NCBI GenBank assembly: GCA_944332475.1
Contig: CALVKA010000002.1
Location: 135,147 to 199,146 of the forward strand
Direction: 5' to 3'
DNA: 64,000 bases
From: an uncultured Bacilli bacterium
GTDB lineage: Bacteria > Bacillota_I > Bacilli_A > RF39 > UBA660
Of the stretch, positions 13,024-14,330 are shown piece after piece. The stretch's first letter is position 1. Each line of letters opens with the position of its first letter. Below the pieces are notes generated by a model. It was not told where the DNA came from. It made no database searches and saw nothing but the letters and a program-made list of their open reading frames with translations. A program made the translations under genes and the position numbers.

Positions 13024-13051
13024 TTGACAATCAATCAATATTTGATATAAT
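13024..13051 (+). promoter_or_regulatory. Strong promoter of tRNA-Gly
   Basis: Perfect TTGACA (13024-13029), a 16-base spacer and perfect TATAAT (13046-13051), with TG in the extended -10 position. The start would be near 13058, leaving a leader of about 60 bases before the tRNA. Confidence 0.85.
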
Positions 13052-13094
13052 TGTAAATGTCTATCAAACTTATAGACTGAACTTTAGTACTAAC

Positions 13095-13105
13095 GGCTGA
13101 GGTTC
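13095..13105 (+). repeat. Inverted copy of tRNA-Gly bases 13140-13150 in the leader
   Basis: GGCTGAGGTTC at 13095-13105 is the exact reverse complement of GAACCTCAGCC at 13140-13150 inside the tRNA (end of the D arm and 5' side of the anticodon stem). It lies within the predicted transcript. Confidence 0.85.
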
Positions 13106-13119
13106 ACACAAATTTATAT

Positions 13120-13193
13120 GCGGATGTAGTTTAATGGTAGAACCTCAGCCTTCCAAGCTGACTACGGGAGTTCGATTCTCCTCATCCGCTCCA
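13120..13193 (+). tRNA. tRNA-Gly (anticodon UCC)
   Basis: A full cloverleaf can be drawn: acceptor GCGGATG with CATCCGC, anticodon stem TCAGC/GCTGA with loop CTTCCAA (anticodon TCC), a short variable loop, and the T loop TTCGATT in a 5-bp stem with one G-T pair. CCA is encoded. It has a strong promoter upstream and a hairpin terminator downstream. Both flanks carry inverted copies of its central part. Confidence 0.96.
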
Positions 13194-13204
13194 TTAGTAA
13201 ATAC

Positions 13205-13234
13205 AAGAACTAGTCAACAACTAGTTCTTTTTTT
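13205..13234. terminator. Terminator after tRNA-Gly
   Basis: A 9-bp stem AAGAACTAG/CTAGTTCTT (13205-13213 with 13221-13229) followed by a T run on the plus strand. It also covers the stop codon of the converging gene. Confidence 0.8.
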
Positions 13235-14025
13235 ATTTCTCCCGTAGTCGACTTGGAAGAAAGCAGTCTCCTATTTCTATAAAATGCCATTACTTCTATA
13301 ATATTGTCTGAAATATTATACCATTTCACTTGAATCAAACTTCTACAAGCCTCATATTTGGGATTATAATTAAGATTACGTGTCATAGGTTGCAAGGTTA
13401 ACAGAGATATATGTAATGACGTCACCTCATCTTTTAAATGTTTTCTCATTATATGATAAACTTCATCTTTCGTAATCCAAATAAAATCTTCAACAACACC
13501 ATATATAATAGCATCAACCTCATATTCAGATTTAGTTCCTTGTAAAATAAATCGATTAACAAAAGCATTAATATATTTTTCATCATTAAGAGCCTTATTA
13601 ATTTCATCAATATCTTTTTGATGCTTTTCTCTATAAAAAGAACTAGATATACGTGTTTTAACAGTACCATCCATTGTCCCATCAGCATATTGATAATACA
13701 AATATTTTTTTATTATTTTCTCATCAATACCTATTTCTCTAAAAAACGAAACCAAAGTACCAATAGACTCATTATGAACAGAGTTCTTAACACCTTTTTT
13801 AATACTAACACCTCTAACATATCCATTAATCTTAATATAAATATCTGCTTTTCTTTTTGATTTATTAACCCAGCACTCTATATAGTCTTTATAATCAAGA
13901 TAACCATATAACTTATACAGCAAATCTAAAAAATTAGGATAAACTCTCCCCACTTGTTTTCCATTAAGATAGAAAGCAAACTCATCTTCATTCTCATAAC
14001 CAGCAATTTTTTTATTAAAAATCAT
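13210..14025 (-). CDS. Unknown protein ending in a tRNA-derived segment; possible nuclease fold
   Basis: Unrecognised protein of 271 residues. Around residues 60-90 it has ADIYIKINGYVRGVSIKKG followed by NSVHNE. The spacing Asp61...Ser74-Ile-Lys76 resembles a divergent PD-(D/E)xK nuclease core, but the acidic residue before the lysine is missing, so this is only a suggestion. The DNA for the last residues (SSKSTTGE) is a 19-of-21 match to the tRNA-Gly centre in reverse orientation. There is no operon partner. The gene lies in a decayed patch next to a tRNA, a typical place for acquired DNA. Confidence 0.6.
   Translation of the reverse strand: MIFNKKIAGYENEDEFAFYLNGKQVGRVYPNFLDLLYKLYGYLDYKDYIECWVNKSKRKADIYIKINGYVRGVSIKKGVKNSVHNESIGTLVSFFREIGIDEKIIKKYLYYQYADGTMDGTVKTRISSSFYREKHQKDIDEINKALNDEKYINAFVNRFILQGTKSEYEVDAIIYGVVEDFIWITKDEVYHIMRKHLKDEVTSLHISLLTLQPMTRNLNYNPKYEACRSLIQVKWYNISDNIIEVMAFYRNRRLLSSKSTTGEIKKELVVD
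13239..13259 (+). repeat. Inverted copy of tRNA-Gly bases 13150-13170 in the downstream gene
   Basis: The 21 bases at 13239-13259 are the reverse complement of 13150-13170 (anticodon loop, 3' anticodon stem, variable loop, 5' T stem) with two adjacent mismatches, CT against TC. They fall inside the 3' end of the minus-strand gene. Confidence 0.85.
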
Positions 14026-14330
14026 AACAACTCTCCCTTCACTAGTATTATTAAGAAAAAAATAAATTTACTCCAAAATTTAAAGCATCATAAAAAGGAT
14101 AATTTTGATTAGTATCATCCTTTTGTATTTTTTTAACTAATGTCTTGTTCAAATTTCTTTCTCCGTCGTTAACACCAGTACCTAAAGAAGATTATTTAAA
14201 TTTTTATCTTAGTTTTTAATGTAACTCTTATTAAAAATTGATATTTTATATATCAAATCGTTATGAGTGAAAAGTTACGCCAATCGCTCCATAGTGAAAT
14301 CTGTTCGAACTTTTCGAGTTTTGATAATAA
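14026..14330. other. Non-coding gap with small hairpins
   Basis: No convincing gene. It contains a hairpin AAAAGGAT/ATCCTTTT (14093-14100 with 14117-14124) followed by T-rich sequence, and an inverted repeat TTGATAT/ATATCAA at 14238-14256. A short plus-strand frame from 14263 overlaps the next gene and looks like chance. Confidence 0.5.

Follow-up and report, generated by a model that had tools for sequence, protein, structure and literature searches.

The tRNA-Gly(UCC) locus of the window

The window, which is the whole stretch of 64,000 nucleotides analyzed here (GenBank assembly GCA_944332475.1, contig CALVKA010000002.1), comes from the 1.43-Mb genome, in 7 contigs, of an uncultured Bacilli bacterium. 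The sole tRNA gene in the window is tRNA-Gly(UCC), which lies between two inverted copies of parts of itself and is followed by a convergent reading frame on the minus strand at 13210-14025, here labeled p271. The parts of the locus are as follows.

13024-13051, plus strand: tRNA promoter, with -35 box TTGACA (13024-13029) and -10 box TATAAT (13046-13051), read from the sequence and kept in the loci of the genus
13079-13105, plus strand: leader hairpin, in which 13079-13087 pairs with 13097-13105; its 3' arm includes the left inverted copy
13095-13105, plus strand: left inverted copy, by sequence match the reverse complement of tRNA positions 21-31
13120-13193, plus strand: tRNA-Gly(UCC) (ARAGORN; Rfam 69.3 bits)
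13205-13235, plus strand: intrinsic terminator of the tRNA (inverted repeat and T run)
13210-14025, minus strand: p271, an ORF for a 271-aa solitary restriction-endonuclease-like protein with a predicted HinP1I/MspI fold
13239-13259, plus strand: right inverted copy, the reverse complement of tRNA positions 31-51 from anticodon loop to T-stem (19/21), conserved and covarying in relatives
14238-14291, plus strand: right end of an inserted cassette, with palindrome TTGATATTTTATATATCAA (14238-14256) and GCTCCA (14286-14291); the same type of end is found in L086 and L277
14292-14330, plus strand: remnant of the resident unit that trails the tRNA in other members of the genus (GTGAAATCTGTTCGAACTTTT; compared with L009, L010 and L094)

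The right copy follows the tRNA terminator immediately and, read on the minus strand, contributes C-terminal codons of p271. The leader hairpin is also present in L005, L009, L010 and L011, with compensating changes. The inserted element spans 13194 to 14291 and p271 is the only long ORF inside it; our ORF survey of this element found no integrase or recombinase. The GCTCCA at 14286-14291 repeats the tRNA 3' end, and such a repeat at the far end of the insert, a mark of tRNA-integrated elements, is found in the window and at many other loci.

Both copies had been pointed out in a preliminary description of the sequence and were found again. The left copy at 13095-13105 is, over all its 11 bases, the reverse complement of 13140-13150; the right copy at 13239-13259 agrees with that of 13150-13170 in 19 of its 21 positions. 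The description had estimated that such matches would rarely arise by chance, and resampling bore this out: the leader 11-mer had P = 0.0018 in dinucleotide-resampled sequence, while none of 1000 such sequences reached 19/21 for the 21-mer, the best giving 17/21.

Conservation and covariation of the inverted copies

We then analyzed a sample of 83 distinct tRNA-Gly(UCC) loci across the bacterial family, chosen by the tRNA and not by the feature. An inverted copy of about tRNA positions 31-51 was found just 3' of the terminator in 29 of the 83. The core of the downstream copy is positions 31-51, from the first anticodon-loop base to the T-stem, and in a minority of loci the copy spans nearly the whole tRNA (L166, L237). 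Copy scores were bimodal: most loci scored either at noise level or as having an evident copy, located at about +44 to +80. Such copies follow the terminator both within the genus of the window and in other genera, even though the terminators are not related to one another. For example, the tRNA and copy read CTTCCAAGCTCGCTACGGGAG and CTCCCGTAGCGAGCTTGGAAG in G316, and CTTCCAAGCTAACTACGTGGG and CCCACGTAGTTAGCTTGGAAG in G154. The preliminary description had named an assembly artefact at a tRNA repeat as one way in which it could be wrong; since separately assembled genomes of many genera have the copies too, a local artefact is ruled out. It had also named relatives without complementarity to the tRNA, whereas complementarity is kept in relatives despite sequence change. 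The inverted copies are genuine, neither chance matches nor assembly artefacts.

When the other tRNAs of the window genome were scanned for flanking complementarity, none had a comparable copy behind its terminator. The sole significant downstream match besides that of tRNA-Gly was a 13-base match at a tRNA-Pro in a tRNA cluster, and one tRNA-Met had a short upstream match.

The upstream copy of the 5' half, usually within tRNA positions 18-40, is rarer than the downstream copy. With a threshold of P <= 0.005, 19 of the 72 copy-positive loci had one, as did 4 of the 70 copy-negative loci. Its place is the leader in the window's genus; in other loci it adjoins or overlaps the -35 box or lies ahead of it. 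Among the genus loci the two copies tend to appear and vanish together: both are present in G000, G001, G014, G006, G013 and G007 and neither in G009, while G004 has the upstream copy alone.

The match between copy and tRNA follows the sequence of each locus. Using the variable tRNA positions of 77 distinct copy-positive loci, we found that the copy tracks its own locus's minority tRNA state in 161 of 172 cases and has the majority state in 6. Pairing in RNA or between single strands should favor substitutions that leave G-U pairs, and such G-U intermediates would be the sign of a regulatory RNA pairing element. The transitions in the core comprised 22 of wobble type and 28 of non-wobble type, with bias on neither strand, although, the numbers being small, a weak wobble bias may be present. 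Since no wobble bias was seen, the match is best explained as kept by copying or selection on double-stranded DNA, not by RNA pairing.

These data bear on the idea of an RNA-level device, in which leader and read-through RNA would pair with the tRNA and regulate either the tRNA or p271. In the window's genus the left copy does fall inside the predicted transcript, where it forms alternative hairpins. However, wobble bias is found on neither strand, the right copy stands behind the terminator, and the orientation of p271 relative to the tRNA varies; we regard such a device as very improbable. The mechanisms offered in the preliminary description accordingly divide. Its DNA-level options, a recombination scar at the anticodon loop and template switching, fit the absence of G-U wobble bias, the outer ends at the anticodon loop and the nuclease gene alongside. 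Its functional fold, with a leader competing with the folding of the tRNA, is not supported: in most copy-positive loci no upstream copy reaches significance, and with p271 upstream the copy is found at or before the -35 box and hence outside the transcript.

The p271 protein and the insertion hotspot

Searches of p271 against Pfam, NCBIfam, PHROGs and the sequences of solved structures gave no clear family; its class assignment comes from PADLOC and fold comparison. The PADLOC model REase_II, for type II restriction enzymes, matches 9 of 15 p271 members (best 7e-17). The AlphaFold model of p271, built from 64 sequences, has pLDDT 88 and resembles HinP1I (Z 16.8 over 217 residues) and MspI (Z 13.1), in both cases along the whole chain. 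Residues E13, D61 and K76 are invariant in the 64 sequences. Thus p271 has a predicted site-specific nuclease fold with conserved catalytic residues, as would be expected of a free-standing homing endonuclease. Related p271 loci belong to metagenome-assembled Bacilli, such as Candidatus Onthousia, Coprovivens and Faecisoma.

Remote homologues occur in a Terrisporobacter phage (L307, 28% identity) and a Staphylococcus kloosii plasmid (L308, 27% identity), each adjoining two DNA methyltransferases. These two neighborhoods are probably type II systems, perhaps with an asymmetric site. In the window genome we searched for a C5-methyltransferase (PF00145) and found none; the search was limited to this class of methylase, and p271 is rejected as a type II restriction-modification member only as to a C5-methylase partner. 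On this evidence p271 seems to be a lone member of a lineage of restriction enzymes. Cutting at a short, frequent site would be lethal, and so the site of p271 would be long or rare, unless the protein is inactive or another class of methylase protects the genome.

The gene is closely tied to the copies. In the sample chosen by tRNA, p271 occurred at 14 of the 29 copy-positive and none of the 54 copy-negative loci (Fisher 2.9e-8), and the other 15 copy-positive loci had no p271 nearby. A separate search based on p271 gave 80 loci, with linkage to a tRNA judged within 3 kb. In about one third of these, a contig end or another cassette left no tRNA within reach. Where any tRNA was present, the nearest was tRNA-Gly(UCC), with the exception of one locus that has a tRNA-Thr on the other side of p271. 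Sixty of the 61 distinct tRNA-linked loci were copy-positive at the usual place; the remaining one (L246), scored negative, has a copy at about +194 that adjoins p271. None of the other tRNAs within reach of p271 loci had a copy.

The side of the copy also depends on p271. The gene is mostly downstream and points at the tRNA, sometimes downstream in the same direction, and upstream in 9 loci. An upstream copy was found in 8 of 9 loci with p271 upstream, as against 8 of 52 with p271 downstream (P=3.4e-5), and on either side the copy is oriented with its anticodon-loop end towards p271. For downstream p271, the median distance from the end of the copy to the p271 reading frame is 6 bp, and the two often overlap. 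In another genus the p271 DNA is about 86% identical, while the terminator and inverted copy differ and match that genus's own tRNA. The tRNAs of p271-positive and copy-negative loci differ at positions 26, 27, 41, 43 and 44, which may reflect phylogeny. We also considered that p271 had entered a complete antisense tRNA precisely at its anticodon loop and rejected this, as the lower end of the copy varies and the missing tRNA half, sought beyond p271, was not found. A second matching half-site was likewise not found on that flank of p271.

The side dependence is relevant to a neutral origin, in which template switching at the terminator hairpin would make and correct the copies (quasipalindrome correction) and they would have no function. 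Template switching is known to create and maintain reverse-complement repeats (PMC8794818), and the covariation without wobble bias and the position of the right copies just 3' of the terminator hairpin agree with it. Against it stand the linkage of the copies to p271, the dependence of their side on that of p271, and the lack of a like arrangement behind the terminators of the window genome's other tRNAs. We consider this origin improbable.

Other insertions are found at the same point. Other genomes carry serial cassettes with like right ends and different cargo. In L086 (G014:C129), a methionyl-tRNA synthetase cassette at 356-1984 lies directly behind tRNA-Gly(UCC) and is bounded by a second terminator-copy unit. 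Near-identical terminator-copy units form direct repeats around a cassette within one genome (L250, 1913-2794; L253, 3763-5401), and the cargo in L253 is an ORF without assigned function. At 9831-14423 in L279 (G227:C4), an element with a 605-aa large serine recombinase is integrated at the tRNA-Gly(UCC) 3' end; the far junction of this element has a repeat of GCTCCATTTG and a displaced terminator-copy unit. Contigs of many genomes of the family end about 70 bp 3' of tRNA-Gly(UCC), which suggests that units are repeated or strains differ at a hotspot. From the varied cassettes, the serine-recombinase element and the contig breaks, the 3' end of tRNA-Gly(UCC) is an insertion hotspot.

p271 and copy could then be tightly linked because both use one insertion hotspot, with the copy as part of a recombination site; this is the main rival to the explanation that we favor. 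In this rival view, cassettes would recombine, in an integron-like way, at a site made of GCTCCA, terminator and inverted copy; the hotspot would be the tRNA 3' end, with p271 as one frequent cargo. The right ends of the elements consist of a hairpin and GCTCCA followed by the terminator-copy unit, these units recur around other cargo (the methionyl-tRNA synthetase of G014 and the ORF of L253), the large-serine-recombinase element of G227 sits at the same point, and many contigs stop about 70 bp past the tRNA. However, no recombinase gene was seen in the p271 cassettes, a copy is missing from the tRNA end of the serine-recombinase element, and the copies at the -35 box with p271 upstream have no GCTCCA. 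Moreover, the extra tyrosine recombinase of the window genome is missing from most of the genus. On balance the recombination site has a real chance of being correct, but we think it unlikely.

As for recombinases elsewhere, the window genome has three tyrosine recombinases, two of them Xer-like by sequence. At 1456-2535 of L294 (G000:C1), a lone 359-aa tyrosine recombinase is located by methyltransferase-like and sigma-factor genes, with relatives in only 5 of 16 genomes of the genus. A domesticated integrase as the driver of the copies was rejected because the gene is absent from most of the genus.

A possible selfish nuclease module and its comparison with known systems

The explanation that we favor, though tentatively, is that the copies may be DNA parts of a selfish, homing-like module with a solitary nuclease on tRNA-Gly(UCC). 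It builds on what was observed, namely the copies, their covariation, the absent wobble bias, the linkage to p271 and the predicted fold. Cleavage, homing and repair are the putative part. The target of p271 would be the near-palindromic anticodon arm of the tRNA-Gly gene, which p271 would cut there. The gene lies immediately outside the transcription unit of the tRNA, next to what would be a half-copy of its target: the 3' half where p271 is downstream and the 5' half where it is upstream, so that the presumed cut end faces p271, much as half-sites border a homing gene carried by an intron. In a naive chromosome, the broken tRNA end would prime on the half-site and copy p271. The half-sites could also template the rebuilding of a cut tRNA, and the copies would stay like the host tRNA by copying from it, through repair or template switching, perhaps with selection.

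Several findings speak against this nuclease module. The tRNA is intact, so that cutting of the anticodon arm by p271 should hit its own host. In addition, 15 of the 29 copy-positive loci lack a nearby p271, the right copy is sometimes nearly a whole tRNA and not always a clean half-site, the far flank of p271 has no second half-site, and the linkage could come from the shared hotspot. A solitary defense nuclease is another reading of p271, with the tRNA locus and copies as its sensor or DNA decoy. The restriction-enzyme fold, the PADLOC REase_II match and the relatives in restriction-modification-like neighborhoods agree with it, but an obligate tie to one tRNA is unlike described defense islands, and we judge it quite improbable.

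Several known systems share parts of the arrangement. The HinP1I and MspI type II restriction endonucleases resemble p271 in fold along the whole chain, whereas they have a partner methyltransferase and are not known to be tied to a tRNA gene. I-Ssp6803I (2ost), a PD-(D/E)xK homing endonuclease, targets the tRNA-fMet anticodon arm. Like p271, it has a restriction-enzyme fold, and the putative target of p271 is likewise a tRNA anticodon arm; unlike p271, it is half the size and intron-encoded, and its target is interrupted by the intron. Its similarity to the p271 model is weak (VIA-align Z 5.2). Integrative elements and cassette arrays at tRNA genes share with the module the tRNA 3'-end repeat at the far end and the serial varied cassettes, but the module has an inverted tRNA fragment beside an intact tRNA and no recombinase.

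Template-switch (quasipalindrome) mutations give reverse-complement repeats with multi-base compensatory changes (PMC8794818); unlike the copies here, they have no known tie to a nuclease gene or to a single tRNA. The seg and mob genes of phage T4 encode free-standing homing endonucleases, with SegB between the tRNA-Arg and tRNA-Ile genes (PMC2988022). Such genes, like that of p271, lie outside introns; they adjoin a conserved gene, their likely target, much as p271 adjoins its putative one. They differ in having GIY-YIG or HNH folds and no known inverted half-copies of the target adjacent to them. For p271 the linkage to tRNA-Gly(UCC) is strong and the adjoining target gene is a presumed one, and by analogy the free-standing homing endonucleases would be the nearest functional counterpart of the module.

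A literature search returned no account of a restriction-fold nuclease tied to one tRNA gene with inverted half-copies. We consider it unlikely, yet conceivable, that the locus represents a new kind of selfish element, in which a solitary restriction-type nuclease settles on an essential tRNA gene without interrupting it, with inverted target halves as landing pads, built-in repair templates or immunity, and in which target and homology arms evolve in lockstep. If true, restriction enzymes, homing endonucleases and tRNA genes would be joined in one compact module, and a non-coding copy would be held identical to a functional gene by DNA copying and not by RNA pairing. Such copying at the DNA level would bear on the reading of covariation as evidence of structure. 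Moreover, tRNA-Gly(UCC) stands out as a much-used insertion site in a large, uncultured lineage of gut bacteria. Set beside the systems above, the tRNA-linked nuclease with its inverted halves looks like an undescribed selfish DNA module.
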